Source: Streptomyces sp. TLI_171 (GTDB taxonomy: Bacteria; Actinomycetota; Actinomycetes; Streptomycetales; Streptomycetaceae). Taken from it: a DNA stretch of 64,000 nucleotides. A program made the position numbers and the translations under genes. Positions within the stretch are counted from its first letter, which is position 1, and each line of letters opens with the position of its first letter. Below are positions 1,480 through 8,553 of the stretch, in pieces. The stretch lies in NCBI RefSeq assembly GCF_003610255.1, contig NZ_RAPS01000001.1, forward strand, positions 7,033,001-7,097,000. The letters are read 5' to 3'. The notes below the pieces were generated by a model. The model saw only the letters and a list, made by a program, of their open reading frames with translations. It did no database searches and had not been told where the DNA came from.

Positions 1480-1523
1480 GAGGTGCCCGCCCGGGTGTGC
1501 CTGAGCACCCGGGCGGGCACCTC
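1480..1523 (+). terminator. Strong intrinsic-type hairpin after the GH30 gene
   Basis: A perfect 18-bp inverted repeat (1480-1497 with 1506-1523) encloses an 8-base loop, 47 bp after the GH30 stop codon. There is no clear T tract, as is usual for high-GC actinobacterial terminators. It separates the GH30 gene from the radical SAM gene. Confidence 0.8.
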
Positions 1524-1549: not shown

Positions 1550-1555
1550 CATGAT
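1550..1555 (+). promoter_or_regulatory. Candidate -10 element (CATGAT) for a leaderless start
   Basis: CATGAT ends 6 bases before the ATG at 1562. The GAGGGG run abuts the ATG directly, too close to act as a ribosome binding site, so a leaderless mRNA starting at 1562 fits better. Confidence 0.4.
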
Positions 1556-1561
1556 GAGGGG

Positions 1562-2905
1562 ATGAACGGTACCGACCGGCGTTTCCACGTCATCGTGCTG
1601 TCGAACTTCGCCAAGGGCTTCGACAAGTACGCGCTCGCCTACGGCAAGGCGGGCATTCCGGAGAGCACCTTCCCCGACCGGTTCCACCTGCTGACCCGCG
1701 CGGAACTCGGCATCGGCGTCCGCAAGGCGCGACGCCTGCTCGACCGGCTGGCGGTGGCCGGCGACCGGCTGCTGGTGCTGGAGACCGAGGTCGACCCCGG
1801 CGACCTGGTGCCCAACACGGCGACCGGACTCGGCACGGAACTCCACCGCCCCGCCATCCGGCTCGCCGCCGTCCACGAACTCGACGGAACCGAACCCGAG
1901 TTCACGCTGCGTCCGACCACCGTCGAGGACGCGATGGCAGCCTCCCTGCATCTGCACGACTCGGTGCAGCGCCGGTACGCCGAGCTGCGGCCGCGCTCCG
2001 TCTCGGTGCTGCCGGTCGCCTCCGCCTGCCAGGCCAAGTGCTCGTTCTGCTTCTCCGCTGCCTCGATATCCGCCGACCAGCCCCCGGCCCGCGTCCCGTG
2101 GGACACCGTCGCCTCCTGGCTGGAACGGGCCCGCACGGCCGGCGCCGAACGCGCGGTGATCACCGGCGGCGGCGAGCCCACCATCCTGCCGTTCGACCAG
2201 CAGCTGCGGCTGGTCTCCGCCTGCTCCGCGACCTTCCCGAAGGTCGTCCTGATCACCAACGGCCACACCCTGGCGAAGGGCGGGCCCGGCGAGCGCGCCG
2301 ACCGGCTGGCCGCGCTGAGCGACGCGGGCCTGGGCGTGCTGGCCGTCTCCCGGCACCACCAGGACGACGCGGTCAGCGCCCGCCTGATGATGCTCGACAC
2401 GCCCGTCGCCTCGCTGGTCGACGCCTGGCGCACCGGACGCGACCGCTGGCCGGGCCTGCGGCTGCGCCTGATCTGCGTGCTCCAGCACGGCGGCGTCGCC
2501 GACGAGGCCGGCATCGCCGCCTACCTCTCCTGGGCGGCCGCCCTCGGCGTCGAAGAGGTCTGCTTCAAGGAGCTCTACGTCTCCACCAGCACCGAATCGC
2601 TCTACTTCGACCGCGCCGCGAACACCTGGAGCCGCGACCACCAGGTCTCGCTGTCCGTCGTCACCCGGTTCGCGGCCCGGCACGGCTTCGAGACGGCCGA
2701 CCGCCTCCCCTGGGGCGCCCCGGTCCTCGACGGCAGCTGGGCCGGCCGGCCGATGCGGATCGCTGCCTACACCGAGCCCAGCCTGTACTGGGAACGCGCC
2801 CACGGCATCGCCCGCAGCTGGAACGTCCTGGCCGACGGCCGCTGCTACGCCTCCCTGGAGGACCGGGCCAGCGAGATCCTGCCGGAAGGAGCGGTGGCGG
2901 TATGA
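1562..2905 (+). CDS. Radical SAM protein of unknown function
   Basis: A 447-residue protein with the radical SAM cluster motif C-x3-C-x2-C (Cys156, Cys160, Cys163: CQAKCSFC) and the SAM-binding GGGEP motif at about 202-206. It should bind a 4Fe-4S cluster and generate a 5'-deoxyadenosyl radical. About 150 residues precede the cluster, an unusually long N-terminal domain with no motif I recognise. A late segment with a conserved-looking Cys (NVLADGRCYASLED) could help bind a second cluster or substrate. The stop overlaps the next start by ATGA (2902-2905), so it is translationally coupled to an aminotransferase-fold protein. I chose ATG 1562; an in-frame GTG at 1547 has no ribosome binding site. 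The reaction is not predictable from this sequence. Confidence 0.85.
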   Translation: MNGTDRRFHVIVLSNFAKGFDKYALAYGKAGIPESTFPDRFHLLTRAELGIGVRKARRLLDRLAVAGDRLLVLETEVDPGDLVPNTATGLGTELHRPAIRLAAVHELDGTEPEFTLRPTTVEDAMAASLHLHDSVQRRYAELRPRSVSVLPVASACQAKCSFCFSAASISADQPPARVPWDTVASWLERARTAGAERAVITGGGEPTILPFDQQLRLVSACSATFPKVVLITNGHTLAKGGPGERADRLAALSDAGLGVLAVSRHHQDDAVSARLMMLDTPVASLVDAWRTGRDRWPGLRLRLICVLQHGGVADEAGIAAYLSWAAALGVEEVCFKELYVSTSTESLYFDRAANTWSRDHQVSLSVVTRFAARHGFETADRLPWGAPVLDGSWAGRPMRIAAYTEPSLYWERAHGIARSWNVLADGRCYASLEDRASEILPEGAVAV

Positions 2906-3918
2906 GGTTCGACGAGTTCCAGGACTACCGACAGCGGCAACTCAGCGCCACCCCAGGCCTGTTGGACGCCGCGGAGACCAACGTGTACCGGGCGCTCGCC
3001 CCGCTGCGGCCCGCACCCCCGGCGCGGACGGGCACGGTGTACCGGTGCGACCTGGCCCGGACGTGGCTGCGCCGCTACGGGCTGCCCGAGGAGTGGTCCC
3101 GCCGGGCGATGGTCAGCCGGGGCGTCCGGCACGGCCTGTCCCTGATGTTCGGTCAACTGCACGCCGAGAAGGCCCGGTTGTGGATTCCCTCGGACGTGTA
3201 CCCGGTCTACGCCGAGCTGGCCCGCGCCGCCGGCCTGAACCCGGGGACCTACCCGACCCTGCCCGCCCCGGTCCTCCCCGCGTCAGCGGCGACCGACCGC
3301 CCCGAGTACCTGCTGCTCGCCAACCCCAGCAAGCCGCTCGGCCGGTACCTCACCGACCCCGAGTGCGCCGAACTTACCGCCTGGCTGGGGGAGTCGCCGC
3401 AGCGCCGGCTGCTGATCGACAGCGTCTACGACCTGGGCGCCCCGTTCGCCGACGGCACCCGGCGGCTGCTGGAGACCGGCCGCACGATCCTGCTGCACTC
3501 GGTCACCAAGGGCTGGCTGTGGCCGCAGACCTTCGGCGTGGTCCTGCTCGGCCCCGACCGGACGGAGGCGGCCGAGGCGTTCCGGGCGGACCCACCGTCG
3601 CCGGAGCAACTGCAGCTCGCCGAACACCTGTTGGCGGACCACCAGGACACCCCCCGACAGGTCGCCGCCGAACTCGCCGCCCGGGCCGAGCGCCTGTTCG
3701 GCCGGCTGCCCGGCGAGGTGCTCGCGGCGATCCCCGCCGCGAGCCGGACCAGCCCCGGCAACTACTTCTTCCCGGTCGCCGTCCCCGCCGAGACCCTCCG
3801 GCAGGAACACGGCCTGCTCGCCCTCCCGATCACCGTGTTCGGCCCCAGCAGCTGGGCCGGCTCCGTCCTGACCAGCCTCGCCCCCGCGTTCGCCGCACCC
3901 ACGGGGGCGCCCCGCTGA
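2902..3918 (+). CDS. PLP-dependent aminotransferase-fold (class I/II-like) protein
   Basis: A 338-residue protein that resembles fold-type I aminotransferases in its core: NPSKPLGR (141-148) matches the NP-x-NPTG motif, Asp173 and Tyr176 in LLIDSVYD fit the PLP-ring contacts, and Lys203 in HSVTKGW is the candidate Schiff-base lysine. It is shorter than normal class I enzymes (about 390-400), and the N-terminal half is divergent, so the substrate pocket is unlike ordinary transaminases. It is co-translated with the preceding radical SAM gene through an ATGA overlap, which implies a shared pathway, for example radical rearrangement followed by transamination or decarboxylation of the same molecule. 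The specific reaction is inference only. It could also be a PLP enzyme that has lost transamination. Confidence 0.75.
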   Translation: MRFDEFQDYRQRQLSATPGLLDAAETNVYRALAPLRPAPPARTGTVYRCDLARTWLRRYGLPEEWSRRAMVSRGVRHGLSLMFGQLHAEKARLWIPSDVYPVYAELARAAGLNPGTYPTLPAPVLPASAATDRPEYLLLANPSKPLGRYLTDPECAELTAWLGESPQRRLLIDSVYDLGAPFADGTRRLLETGRTILLHSVTKGWLWPQTFGVVLLGPDRTEAAEAFRADPPSPEQLQLAEHLLADHQDTPRQVAAELAARAERLFGRLPGEVLAAIPAASRTSPGNYFFPVAVPAETLRQEHGLLALPITVFGPSSWAGSVLTSLAPAFAAPTGAPR

Positions 3919-3939
3919 GAACCGCCGCTCGCCCGCCGC

Positions 3940-4869
3940 TCAGCGCTGGGCCAGCACCTCCAGCAGGCGGGTCAGCGAAGTGCCCAGGTTCCACCGCTCG
4001 GCGAGCGTCTCCAGCGCCATCGGGTCGCGCGGCTCGCGCGGCAACTCGGGGTCGAAGGGCGGGAGTTCGACATCCTTGGCGACCTGCACCACGGTCGGCG
4101 CGACCTCCAGGTACGGGGCCGCCTCCAGCAGGTTCCGGCGGCGGGCCGGCGTCAGCTTCGAGGACGGATCGGCGGCGGCCGCGCGGACGCCCGCCAGGTC
4201 GCCGTACTCCTGGATCAGCTGGGTCGCGGTCTTCTCGCCGATCCCCTTCACACCCGGCAGGCCGTCACTGGCGTCGCCGCGCAGCGCCGCCAGGTCCGCG
4301 TAACCCGCGCCGCGGACGCCGTACTTCTCCAGCAGCGCCGCATCGTCCATCCGCTGCGCCGCGCCGATCCCCTTCACCGGGTACAGCACCGTCACCGCCC
4401 GGGCGTCGTCGACCAGCTGGAACAGGTCCCGGTCGCCGGTGACGATCTGCACCGGGCCGGTGGCGCGGGTGGCCAGCGTGCCGATCACGTCGTCCGCCTC
4501 GTAGCCCGGCGCGCCGACCCGGGCCAGGCCCACGGCGTCCAGCACCTGCTCGATCACCGGGACCTGCGGGGCGAGGGTGTCCGGCACCTCCTCCTCGCCG
4601 TCGGTGGCGGCCTCCGCGACCCGGTGGGTCTTGTAGGTGGGGATCAGGTCGACCCGCCACTGCGGACGCCAGTCGGCGTCCATGCAGGCCACCAGCTGGT
4701 CGGGACCGTGGTCCTGGACCAGGCGGGAGATGAAGTCCAGCAGGCCGCGCACCGCGTTCACCGGCTCGCCCTGCGGCGAGCGCAGCGAATCCGGGACGCC
4801 GAAGTAGGCGCGGAAGTAGAGGCTCGCGGTGTCGAGCAGCATCAGACGCGGTGCGGTCGGTACGGTCAC
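3940..4869 (-). CDS. 5'-3' exonuclease (PolA N-terminal domain-like, stand-alone)
   Basis: About 309 residues, matching the 5'-3' exonuclease/FEN domain of DNA polymerase I without the polymerase. Visible metal-binding acids include LLDTASLYFRAYF near the start, CMDADWR, EADDVIGTLA and TGDRDLFQL; the helix-hairpin-helix segment LPGVKGIGEKTATQLI binds duplex DNA. It probably trims flaps or RNA primers during replication and repair, as similar stand-alone proteins common in actinobacteria are thought to do. I favour GTG 4869 because CATGAT lies exactly 6 bases upstream (leaderless pattern); the alternative is ATG 4887, which adds MRHDRG. It converges on the aminotransferase-fold gene with a 21-bp gap. 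Confidence 0.9.
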   Translation of the reverse strand: MTVPTAPRLMLLDTASLYFRAYFGVPDSLRSPQGEPVNAVRGLLDFISRLVQDHGPDQLVACMDADWRPQWRVDLIPTYKTHRVAEAATDGEEEVPDTLAPQVPVIEQVLDAVGLARVGAPGYEADDVIGTLATRATGPVQIVTGDRDLFQLVDDARAVTVLYPVKGIGAAQRMDDAALLEKYGVRGAGYADLAALRGDASDGLPGVKGIGEKTATQLIQEYGDLAGVRAAAADPSSKLTPARRRNLLEAAPYLEVAPTVVQVAKDVELPPFDPELPREPRDPMALETLAERWNLGTSLTRLLEVLAQR

Positions 4870-4982: not shown

Positions 4983-6068
4983 TCAGTGCGGGTGCGGGCC
5001 CGAGCGGTGCACCGGGCCGTGCGAGTCCGCGCAGTGCTCCCGCGCCTCCTCCTCGGCCGCGGCCGCCGCCGCGCTGCTCGGCGCGATCTGCAGCAGCCCG
5101 TCCGCGTCCCCCTCGCCGACGTGATCGACCTGCAGCGTGGTGTGGGTGATCCGGTACTCCTCGCGCAGCCGGCGCTGCAGCTCGTGCTGTACCGCGTGGC
5201 AGTCGCCCCCCGGGGTGACCAGGATGTGCGCGGACAGGGCGGGCTCGTTCGAGGTGATCTCCCAGATGTGCAGGTCGTGGATCTCCTCCACCTGCTCCAA
5301 CGCCACCAGCCGGTCGGCGACCCGGTCCGGGTCGATCCCGGCGGGCGCCGCCTCAAGGAAGATCCGCGCCGAGTCCCGGACCAGTCCGATCCCGGCCCGC
5401 AGCATCAGCGCCACCACCACCAGCGAGGCGATCGCGTCCGCCCGCACGAACCCGGTGAACAGCACCACCGCACCCGCCAGCGCCGTGGCGATGAACGCGT
5501 ACAAGTCGGTCAGGACGTGCTGGAAAGCGCCTTCCACGTTCAGCGAGGACCGGTTCGCCCGCGACAGGCACCAGGTCGCCGCGATGTTCACCACCACGCC
5601 GACCAGCGCCGTCACCAGCACCAGCGAACCCGTCACCGCCGGCGGCGAGATCAGCCGCGTCACCGCCTCGTAGCCCAGCCACGCCGACAGCACCAGCAGC
5701 GTGACCCCGTTCGCCTGCGCCGACAGGATCTCCGCCCGCTTCAGCCCGTACGTGTAGCCGCCGCGCGCCGGACGCGCCGCCAGCCGCATCGCCACCAGGG
5801 CCAGCGCGATCGACGCGGCGTCGGTCAGCATGTGCGCCGCGTCCGAGATCAGCGCCAGCGACTGGGCGGCGAAACCGACCACCACCTCGCCCGCCATGAA
5901 GACCAGCAGCAGCACCAGCGCGCTCCACAGCCACTTCCGGTCCGCGTCCGCCGACACCGCGTGGCTGTGACCGCGATGCCCGCCGTGTCCGGCGTGCTCG
6001 TGGCCCTCCGGCCCGGCGTGGTCGTGGCCGTGCTCCTGGTCGTGCGCGTCGTGCGCGTGCTCGGCCAT
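4983..6068 (-). CDS. Cation diffusion facilitator (CDF) family zinc/cobalt-type exporter
   Basis: A 361-residue inner-membrane proton-coupled metal exporter. The first 38 residues are very rich in His, Asp and Glu (HAHDAHDQEHGHDH and similar), a metal-buffering tail. Six hydrophobic helices follow; the transport-site acids and histidines are visible as SDAAHMLTD in helix 2 and HVLTD in helix 5. The cytoplasmic C-terminal domain (HDLHIWEITS) is typical, and the protein ends in another His-containing tail. The start at 6068 has GGAGGGA at good spacing; the frame is open much further upstream but without supporting signals. It is divergent from the chromate transporter across 169 bp. Zn(II) is the most likely substrate; Co, Cd or Ni are possible. 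Confidence 0.93.
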   Translation of the reverse strand: MAEHAHDAHDQEHGHDHAGPEGHEHAGHGGHRGHSHAVSADADRKWLWSALVLLLVFMAGEVVVGFAAQSLALISDAAHMLTDAASIALALVAMRLAARPARGGYTYGLKRAEILSAQANGVTLLVLSAWLGYEAVTRLISPPAVTGSLVLVTALVGVVVNIAATWCLSRANRSSLNVEGAFQHVLTDLYAFIATALAGAVVLFTGFVRADAIASLVVVALMLRAGIGLVRDSARIFLEAAPAGIDPDRVADRLVALEQVEEIHDLHIWEITSNEPALSAHILVTPGGDCHAVQHELQRRLREEYRITHTTLQVDHVGEGDADGLLQIAPSSAAAAAAEEEAREHCADSHGPVHRSGPHPH

Positions 6069-6237
6069 CGAGATCCCTCCGCTCTGGTGCCCGCACGGGA
6101 AGTGAACCCCAATTCGGAGGAAGATCCAAAGGCTGCACTGGTGACCGTTGTCGTTCCCCTGTAGGCCATTCGGGTCCGATAAGGTGCGGCCCGCGTCCGC
6201 GCAGGCCGCGCGGGCATTCGACGGAGGGCGGAGCGGC

Positions 6238-7461
6238 ATGGCGGACGGGACCGCGGATCGGGTGCCACTCACGGTCATCGCCAGGGAGTGGGGCCGGATC
6301 GGCGTCCTCGGCTTCGGCGGACCGCCCGCGCACATCCTGCTGCTGCGCAGGCTCTGCGTGGAACAGCGCGGCTGGATCGCCGCGAGCGAGTTCGAGGACG
6401 GCATCGCCGCCACCAACCTGCTGCCCGGCCCGGCCTCCACCCAGCTGGCGATCTTCACCGCCTGGCGACTGCGCGGCCCCGCCGGCGCACTGGTCGGCGG
6501 CGCGGCGTTCATCGTCCCCGGACTGCTGCTGATCCTGCTGCTGTCCGCCCTGTTCCTGGCCGGCAACCCGCCGCGCTGGGTGCTCGGCGCGGCCGCCGGC
6601 GCGGGCTCGGCCGTCGCCGCCGTCGCCGTCCAGGCCGCCAGCACGCTCGTCCCGCCCAGCCTGCGGCGCTCCGGCCCCGGCCGGGCCCGGCTGCGCTGGG
6701 GCTGCTACCTGCTGCTCGGCGCGGCCGCCGTGATCCTCACCGGCCCCTGGCTGGTGCTCGCCCTGATCGGCGCCGGCGCCGCGGAGATCGCCTTCCGCCG
6801 CCGCACCCGCGGAACCAACCCAACGGGGGACGCCGCGCTGGGCCGACCGGACGCCGACCCGCCCGCCGCACCGAAGGGACCGCGACTCGCGCTCCCGCTG
6901 CTCGCGCCCGGCCTGGCCGCCACCGGCGGGCTCGGCGCGCTCGCCTGGGTGGCGTTCAAGGTCGGCGCGCTGTCCTACGGCGGCGGATTCGTGATCATCC
7001 CGCTGATGCAGCAGGACGCGGTCCACCGCTACCACTGGATGACGGACGGTCAGTTCCTGAACGCCGTCGCGCTCGGCCAGATCACCCCCGGGCCGGTCGT
7101 GCAGACCGTCTCGGTGGTCGGCTACGCGGCCGCCGGCGTCCTCGGCGGACTGCTGGCCGCGACCGTCGCGTTCGCGCCGTCCTTCCTGTTCGTGCTGTTC
7201 GGCGCGGCCCAGTTCGACCGTCTGCGCGCCAACACCGCCGTCCAGGACTTCCTCACCGGCGCGGGCCCCGCCGTGATCGGCGCGATCGCCGGCTCCGCCC
7301 TCCCGCTGGCGCTGGCCCTCAGCCGCCCCTGGCAGTACGCGGTGCTGGCGCTCGCAGCCGGCTGGCTGCTCGGGCTGCGCCGCGGCATCGTCCCCTGCCT
7401 GCTCGGCGCGGCCGCCCTCGGCATCCTCGCCACCACCGCGGCCGGCCTGCCTCTCCCGTAG
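6238..7461 (+). CDS. chrA: Chromate ion transporter ChrA (CHR family)
   Basis: A 407-residue membrane protein with two homologous CHR halves: the first at about 10-190 (WGRIGVLGFGGPPAHILLL, LLPGPASTQLAIF) and the second at about 215-400 (FKVGALSYGGGFVIIPLMQ, LGQITPGPVVQTVSVVGY). The paired GFGGP/SYGGG and LPGP/TPGP motifs define the family. A hydrophilic, Pro-rich linker lies between the halves. It exports chromate, usually giving chromate resistance, though many homologues have unproven substrates. ATG 6238 is preceded by GGAGGG 9 bases upstream. The stop codon lies in a 46-bp sequence that is repeated 74 bp downstream. Confidence 0.92.
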   Translation: MADGTADRVPLTVIAREWGRIGVLGFGGPPAHILLLRRLCVEQRGWIAASEFEDGIAATNLLPGPASTQLAIFTAWRLRGPAGALVGGAAFIVPGLLLILLLSALFLAGNPPRWVLGAAAGAGSAVAAVAVQAASTLVPPSLRRSGPGRARLRWGCYLLLGAAAVILTGPWLVLALIGAGAAEIAFRRRTRGTNPTGDAALGRPDADPPAAPKGPRLALPLLAPGLAATGGLGALAWVAFKVGALSYGGGFVIIPLMQQDAVHRYHWMTDGQFLNAVALGQITPGPVVQTVSVVGYAAAGVLGGLLAATVAFAPSFLFVLFGAAQFDRLRANTAVQDFLTGAGPAVIGAIAGSALPLALALSRPWQYAVLALAAGWLLGLRRGIVPCLLGAAALGILATTAAGLPLP

Positions 7462-7575
7462 CCCGCCCAGGGCGGTCCGCCGACGCTTGCCTGCTGCTCC
7501 CGTGGGCAGACGCCGCCGGCCAGTTGCTGCCGTAGCCCGCCCGGGCCGCCCGCCGACGCTTGCCTGCTGCTCCCG
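7456..7575. repeat. Direct duplication of the chrA stop-codon region
   Basis: Bases 7456-7502 and 7530-7575 are near-identical (about 46 bp each; the 3' 25 bases match exactly). The first copy carries the chrA stop codon; the second ends just before the 3' end of the convergent hydrolase gene. Confidence 0.8.
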
Positions 7576-7582
7576 GCGTCTG

Positions 7583-8338
7583 TCAGACCACCGGGAGGGC
7601 GGCGGATTCCGGGGTGGCGGGGGTGGTGAGCGGGGCCAGCCGGGTGGCGTTGACCAGGGCGCGGGCGATCCGGAGGTCCTCGCCCTGCTCGGGGTGCCAC
7701 TGGACGCCGAGGGTGAAGCCGGCGCCCTCGACCGCCTCGACGGTGCCGTCCGCCGCGTGGGCGCAGACGGCCAGGCCCTCGCCGAGCCGGGCCACCGCCT
7801 GGTGGTGGTAGGTCGGGACGACCACCGACTCCTCCGGCAGCAGGTCGGCGAGGAGGGTGCCGGGCACCGGACGGATCGGGTGCCGCCCGTACTCGCCGGG
7901 CTCGCCGATGTGGCTGAGCTCGTCGCCGACCACGTCCGGCAGGTGCTGGATCAGGGAGCCGCCGCAGACCACGTTCAGCAGTTGCATGCCGCGGCAGATG
8001 CCCAGCAGCGGGGTGCCGGCGGCGAGCGCGGCGCGGATCAGCGCGGCCTCCCACAGGTCGCGCTCGGGGGCGTTGGCCGTGGTCAGGTGGTGGGCGCGCT
8101 CGCCGTAGAGGGTGGGGGAGACGTCCTCGCCGCCCGCGATCACCAGGCCGTCGAGGCGGGCGACGGCGGCCGCGGCGTACTGCGGTGCGTCCGGCGGGAG
8201 CATCACCGCGATGGCGCCGGCGGCCTGGATCAGGGCCGGGTAGCTCTCGGACAGCAGTACCGAGCGCATGCTGTCCCACCTCCCCCAGGCGGCGTCGGTG
8301 AGACAGGTGCTGATGCCGATCACGGGGCGAGAGGTCAT
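7583..8338 (-). CDS. Gamma-glutamyl-gamma-aminobutyrate hydrolase family (PuuD-like, class I glutaminase fold)
   Basis: A 251-residue class I glutamine amidotransferase-fold hydrolase of the peptidase C26 family. The catalytic triad is visible: the Cys nucleophile in GICRGMQLLN, His and Glu in QWHPEQG, with the YHHQAV segment typical of PuuD-like enzymes. These hydrolyse gamma-glutamyl amides, as in putrescine catabolism or removal of glutamyl tags. No other putrescine pathway genes lie nearby, so the substrate is open. I chose ATG 8338 (MTSRPVIG); an in-frame start 9 bases upstream is possible. It is a single gene, convergent with chrA. Confidence 0.9.
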   Translation of the reverse strand: MTSRPVIGISTCLTDAAWGRWDSMRSVLLSESYPALIQAAGAIAVMLPPDAPQYAAAAVARLDGLVIAGGEDVSPTLYGERAHHLTTANAPERDLWEAALIRAALAAGTPLLGICRGMQLLNVVCGGSLIQHLPDVVGDELSHIGEPGEYGRHPIRPVPGTLLADLLPEESVVVPTYHHQAVARLGEGLAVCAHAADGTVEAVEGAGFTLGVQWHPEQGEDLRIARALVNATRLAPLTTPATPESAALPVV

Positions 8339-8553
8339 GGCGCGCATTCTGCCGTGCCGCTGAACCCCCGGCTGCGCGACCCACCCCCCTCGTGCGCCCC
8401 CTCAGGCGCGTGGAGCACATTGCGCGCCCCGGTGGCTCCCGGGAGCACCCCCGAACGGTCCCGCCAGGGGCCGATGCGCGATTCTCACCGGAATCTCATC
8501 GCCCGACCCCCGATTCCGGCCCCGCGCTGATTTCCCGCTTATCCGCAGCCCCC

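Follow-up and report, generated by a model that had tools for sequence, protein, structure and literature searches.

A radical SAM–PLP enzyme pair shared by four phyla and a phage contig, found in a Streptomyces genome without its usual methyltransferase

Our analysis of a 64,000-nucleotide stretch of the Streptomyces sp. TLI_171 genome (hereafter the window) revealed a compact, coupled enzyme set that is kept in four phyla and in one phage and whose chemistry is unassigned. In the window it comprises genes for a radical SAM (rSAM) protein and a fold-type-I PLP protein (Table 1). This pair is a real unit. The preliminary description of this DNA had the pair standing alone, which is half right: the fuller unit has three genes, the third encoding a class I SAM methyltransferase (MT), and the window holds a methyltransferase-deleted derivative. 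The reading frames given in that description, their ATGA overlap and the lysine it singled out in the PLP protein, Lys203, were all borne out. Its view of the pair as an undescribed system in which neither gene fits a known pathway is likewise supported, as neither gene matched a characterized pathway and no paper on the rSAM–PLP pair or the triad was found in the open-access literature. A new pairing of this kind would serve enzymologists and natural-product chemists.

Table 1. Features of the cassette and its boundaries, in window coordinates
Feature	Position	Strand	Basis or remark
Strong inverted repeat in the gap that separates the cassette from the glycoside hydrolase gene upstream	1482..1521	none	MFE −51.2 kcal/mol, z −6.6
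CATGAT, resembling a −10 box; distance to the rSAM start codon exactly 6 nt	1550..1555	+	Same distance in most actinobacterial loci
rSAM protein, 447 aa	1562..2905	+	ORF, Pfam, homologue and fold matches
rSAM N-terminal alpha/beta domain, about residues 1 to 135	1562..1966	+	In all homologues; mostly high-confidence prediction
CQAKCSFC, the CxxxCxxC [4Fe-4S] motif (C156, C160, C163)	2027..2050	+	Cysteines invariant in homologues
ATGA start/stop overlap of the rSAM and PLP genes	2902..2905	+	ATGA or GTGA overlap in many homologues too
Fold-type-I PLP protein, aminotransferase fold, 338 aa	2902..3918	+	ORF, Pfam, homologue and fold matches
K203, predicted PLP Schiff-base lysine	3508..3510	+	Lines up with the lysine region in aminotransferases of solved structure
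Deletion junction, MT gene missing	3918..3919	+	Alignment to a sister locus (L027)

The first protein belongs to the Radical SAM superfamily, with residues 152 to 269 matching the Pfam Radical_SAM domain (9.6e-9; 36.1 bits against the 29.5 needed) and the cluster-binding motif lying in that domain. About 100 of its residues are invariant. Among 11 diverse homologues, the invariant elements include CxxxCxxC, the GGGEP loop, C305, C334, LPWG, AAYTEPS and RSWN, together with 20 invariant residues of the N-terminal domain, where the LSNF and KY motifs lie. This domain had been described as 150 unrecognized residues; it is nearer 135 residues long, and Pfam and PDB sequence searches with it indeed returned no match. 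The fold searches took in residues 137 onward, and the novelty of the domain is claimed at the level of sequence. In the AlphaFold model (mean pLDDT 86), the core is about as similar to Tes (GDGT-MAS) as to MoaA, SuiB, viperin and BlsE, and therefore the fold names no substrate. A search of a viral fold library gave general rSAM matches only. In an NCBIfam profile search of both cassette proteins, no model came near its cut-off. Specifically, the rSAM protein scored 26.9 bits against 284 for MoaA (TIGR02666) and 29.9 bits against 180 for prokaryotic viperin (NF038283), for which the phage member reached 41.2 bits.

The second protein matches Pfam Aminotran_1_2 over residues 46 to 318 (1.2e-10; 41.6 bits against the 19.7 needed), and its AlphaFold model (mean pLDDT 91) aligns with fold-type-I enzymes with Z of about 26 over 310 to 325 residues. 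Across 11 PLP homologues, down to 22% identity, K203, S200, D173 and Y176 are invariant, as are R76 and a DVYP motif. The fold, the Schiff-base lysine and the Asp and Tyr at the PLP ring, roles usual for these residues in the fold, place the protein among the class I/II aminotransferases, the group that includes the threonine-phosphate decarboxylase CobD and shares the K203/D173/Y176/S200 pattern. It is not a CobD (23.2 bits against a cut-off of 290 for TIGR01140). It also differs from class I/II aminotransferases in being shorter, in its obligate rSAM partner and in three positions that its family does not conserve: the Asn in the NPxNPTG loop, the arginine that follows the lysine on the phosphate side and, characteristic of the aspartate-aminotransferase type, a C-terminal arginine for the carboxylate; no arginine is conserved in the C-terminal 30 columns of the PLP alignment. 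Without a conserved arginine to bind the carboxylate, the protein is unlikely to carry out ordinary amino-acid transamination; its reaction could instead be a lyase reaction or a decarboxylation. As a whole, the pattern of motif conservation argues for an active PLP enzyme that would work on an unusual substrate.

A homologue scan of 84,980 genomes yielded 42 loci. In 41 of them the rSAM gene is essentially complete, and each of these has the PLP gene directly adjacent; in the other (L042), the first 99 rSAM residues remain and the PLP gene is absent. Strong matches to the two proteins fell in the identical 12 of 61 related genomes, 10 of them among 36 other genomes of the same genus, so that neither gene was found alone in this co-occurrence check. 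Adjacency is kept even where the gene order is reversed, in the metagenome-assembled genome (MAG) L040. Distances between rSAM proteins and between PLP proteins correlate with r of 0.94 to 0.95 (0.945 for 36 actinobacterial loci), a value as high as which arose in none of 1,000 permutations. Coupling and co-inheritance make plausible the suggestion of the preliminary description that the enzymes are made in fixed stoichiometry and that one substrate passes through both.

The pair is conserved well beyond chance: identities are 75 to 84% (rSAM) and 66 to 79% (PLP) in dozens of Actinomycetota, and 43 to 60% and 22 to 52%, respectively, in other phyla and one phage. Outside Actinomycetota the carriers are Dyella, Pleionea, a Tenacibaculum MAG, planctomycetes and a 465-kb phage contig; the cassette also resides on Embleya megaplasmids. 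Its distribution is sparse and patchy. In wide scans that scored only four or five candidates per genome, and whose rates are lower bounds, it was present in at least 2 of the 345 genomes from the class, at least 1 of 398 genomes of the Pleionea phylum and at least 1 of 395 genomes of the Tenacibaculum order (the match being the centre genome itself in both of the latter), and in at least 5 of 294 genomes of the phylum of L040, one of these a partial match. The phage contig (L075, 5983–8219; IMGVR_UViG_3300034072_000926 in IMG/VR) is of jumbo-phage size, carries a terminase and a tail-fibre gene, and encodes the pair, whose genes overlap by GTGA, without an MT. PHROGs has no family for the pair.

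The MT is the usual third gene; it occurs in four phyla, and at most of its loci it overlaps the PLP gene. It encodes a class I SAM methyltransferase (Methyltransf_25; 77.6 and 64.8 bits against 27 needed). An intact copy lies downstream of the PLP gene, overlapping it or close by, in 15 actinobacterial loci of the scan, whereas many actinobacterial copies of the cassette have lost it; the gene is broken in L007 (8351–9047) and reduced to a 27-residue relic in L018 (3306–3386). The order rSAM–PLP–MT, mostly with overlaps, recurs in Dyella (L037), the Tenacibaculum MAG (L039), Pleionea (L041) and three planctomycete-like genomes (L099 to L101, whose phylum was assigned through kinship to L040, itself placed in Planctomycetota by gene content). 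As it occurs in several phyla, the triad is probably ancestral. L040, like the phage contig, has no MT.

From the window cassette the MT has been cleanly deleted. The end of the PLP gene up to its stop codon (3721–3918) aligns with 8271–8468 of the Kitasatospora locus L027 at 80% identity, and the alignment resumes from window position 3919 with L027 9228–9456, matching at 10 of 10 positions and then at 77%. The 759 bp between these L027 segments contain the entire MT gene, an intact copy between homologous flanks. In the rSAM tree the window protein groups as sister with four MT-retaining Kitasatospora copies (SH-aLRT 96), and parsimony counts 10 changes in MT presence or absence, at least 3 of them forced. 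No strong MT copy was found elsewhere in the genome of the window, and no rSAM or PLP gene was recognized beside stand-alone MT homologues in other Actinomycetota. Pairwise dN/dS of the cassette genes is 0.23 to 0.51 (Nei-Gojobori; rough at a GC3 of 0.95), which is below 1, and therefore both remaining genes appear to be still constrained.

The cassette probably has its own leaderless promoter, judging from the CATGAT box. At 31 of 38 actinobacterial loci the box sits exactly 6 nt upstream of the start codon. Background ATG/GTG positions show it in 34 of 13,271 cases, the cassette loci themselves being counted among them. In several of the other seven loci the box precedes a start codon other than the listed one. 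No −35 box was recognized at normal spacing upstream. Leaderless mRNAs are common in Streptomyces; in S. lividans about 20% of genes are leaderless, and the −10 consensus is TANNNT (PMC6742748). In two Kitasatospora loci (L025 and L029) the rSAM protein appears to start earlier, upstream of position 6001, with a low-complexity, Gln/Arg/Ser-rich N-terminal extension that follows the conserved CATGAT box. A conserved ATGATGACGGGATGA was considered as a coupled mini-ORF and rejected, since L004 and L020 do not have its stop codon.

Upstream, the hairpin of Table 1 is probably the terminator of the preceding gene. It occurs once in the window and never in shuffles; it has no U-tract and is therefore missing from the terminator scan. 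Downstream, a gene that by eye encodes a 5'-3' exonuclease converges on the cassette at 3940. The upstream gene (54–1433) encodes, also by eye, a GH30-like glycosidase that carries a ricin-B-type lectin domain. A related glycosidase gene precedes the cassette in L025, whose neighbourhood is common to L025 through L029, which suggests a shared chromosomal site.

What the cassette makes can be proposed tentatively. The reading that we prefer, as a possibility short of a probability, is a self-contained, small-molecule (non-ribosomal) pathway of oxidation, amination and N-methylation, for which we infer cofactor use, the order of steps and the methylated atom. The rSAM enzyme would generate a 5'-deoxyadenosyl radical at its CxxxCxxC cluster and abstract a hydrogen from a substrate held between the TIM-barrel and the N-terminal domain, leaving the product oxidized (carbonyl-type) or rearranged. 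On this product the PLP enzyme would act next, most likely adding or handling an amine through K203, but it would do so without the arginine that aspartate aminotransferases usually provide for a free alpha-carboxylate. In full cassettes the MT would N-methylate the amine last. N-methylation is suggested by the nearest characterized relatives of the MT, mostly N-methyltransferases: CcbJ, CypM, YunM, glycine/sarcosine MT, the DesVI/TylM1-type N,N-dimethyltransferases and the daptide MT. DesVI/TylM1, CcbJ, CypM and glycine/sarcosine MT work with other partners. Because the MT has been lost repeatedly and is absent from the phage, methylation would be a last, dispensable step, and since it is deleted in the window, this strain should make the unmethylated compound. 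The full, MT-less and phage versions form a natural experiment, by which the order of steps becomes directly testable.

The same oxidize–aminate–dimethylate logic operates in formation of the daptide Dmp residue by MpaB/C, MpaD and MpaM (PMC10036551), and the daptide MT family is the best match of the cassette MT. In contrast to the daptide pathway, the cassette uses a radical SAM enzyme, shows neither a precursor peptide nor an RRE protein nor an alcohol dehydrogenase, and has an MT that scores under the family cut-off.

A Pfam tally of 109 flanking proteins placed no family in more than three and gave no recurring transporter, regulator or resistance gene. This is unusual for an exported natural product and counts against the small-molecule pathway. 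Together with the phage copy, it makes a serious rival of a role in modifying macromolecules, whether tRNA, rRNA, DNA or protein side chains, even if on balance we consider this role unlikely. The N-terminal domain would dock the polymer, the rSAM and PLP enzymes would remodel a base or residue, and the MT would finish. The pair on a contig with terminase and tail-fibre genes fits such a role at least as well as it fits the small-molecule pathway; the absence of a recurring precursor, a PLP enzyme with no conserved arginine for a free carboxylate and the very high conservation of the rSAM protein are also in keeping with it. However, presence in 10 of 36 genomes of one genus would be unusually patchy for RNA modification, the relatives of the MT act mostly on small molecules or peptides, and no nucleic-acid-binding domain is recognizable. 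A more speculative reading, which we regard as quite unlikely, would be a new kind of radical SAM–PLP pathway, common to a jumbo phage and bacteria of four phyla and used in phage–host conflict, in which the rSAM enzyme remodels a nucleotide, nucleoside or RNA by means of a new substrate-docking domain and methylation comes last and is optional.

Rather improbable is a nucleotide-analogue system of the viperin/MoaA type, in which the rSAM enzyme would act on a nucleotide or nucleoside and the PLP enzyme and MT decorate it, as an antiviral in bacteria and a counter-measure or resource in the phage. MoaA and viperin share the CxxxCxxC barrel and are among the best folds (Z 19 to 20), there are weak pVip matches (7e-8), and the top sequence matches among solved structures are MoaA and AbmM, which we take to belong to albomycin nucleoside biosynthesis. 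Yet the match is limited to the rSAM core from residue 137 onward, RiPP maturases and Tes match equally well, the viperin scores (30 to 41 bits) stay far below the cut-off of 180, and no defence-gene neighbourhood emerged from the flanking Pfam tally. The extra N-terminal domain and the obligate PLP partner further set the cassette rSAM apart from viperin and MoaA.

We give little credence to ovothiol/ergothioneine-like C–S chemistry, with thioether formation by the rSAM enzyme, C–S lysis by the PLP enzyme and finishing by the MT: C–S lyases and OvoB are among the PLP matches and the Pleionea MT has a weak match to the OvoA C-terminal methyltransferase (1e-7), but transaminases match the PLP protein equally or better and no arginine is conserved for a cysteine carboxylate. 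A daptide-like RiPP pathway, in which the three enzymes would modify a ribosomal peptide, is disfavoured and very hard to credit; the daptide MT is the best NCBIfam match of the MT (1.8e-27) and SuiB, SkfB and EpeE are among the rSAM fold matches, but the MT reaches 96.3 of the 175 bits needed for that family (NF041820), no RRE or SPASM domain was found, no conserved small ORF lies within about 1.2 kb on either side across the 42 loci, and only about 40 bp separate hairpin and start codon in the window. Small-ORF clusters considered as precursors were only shadows of the main genes or of flanking genes specific to a lineage.

Some cassettes are decaying: L010 has a PLP gene with an internal deletion (7338–8177) and L042 the truncated rSAM gene (6001–6297). 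In two further genomes (G005:C2:900559-901722 and G020:C19:7718-9052) the rSAM gene was matched in two pieces or has an in-frame TGA, by assembly error or as a pseudogene. Short, solitary rSAM genes, with no PLP gene recognized nearby, occur on large phage contigs (L076, 5938–6930; L077, 5974–6918; L078, 5938–6837; L080, 5980–6894). Their products are without the N-terminal domain and carry, after the TNG strand of the barrel, the SRH motif seen in the cassette rSAM family.
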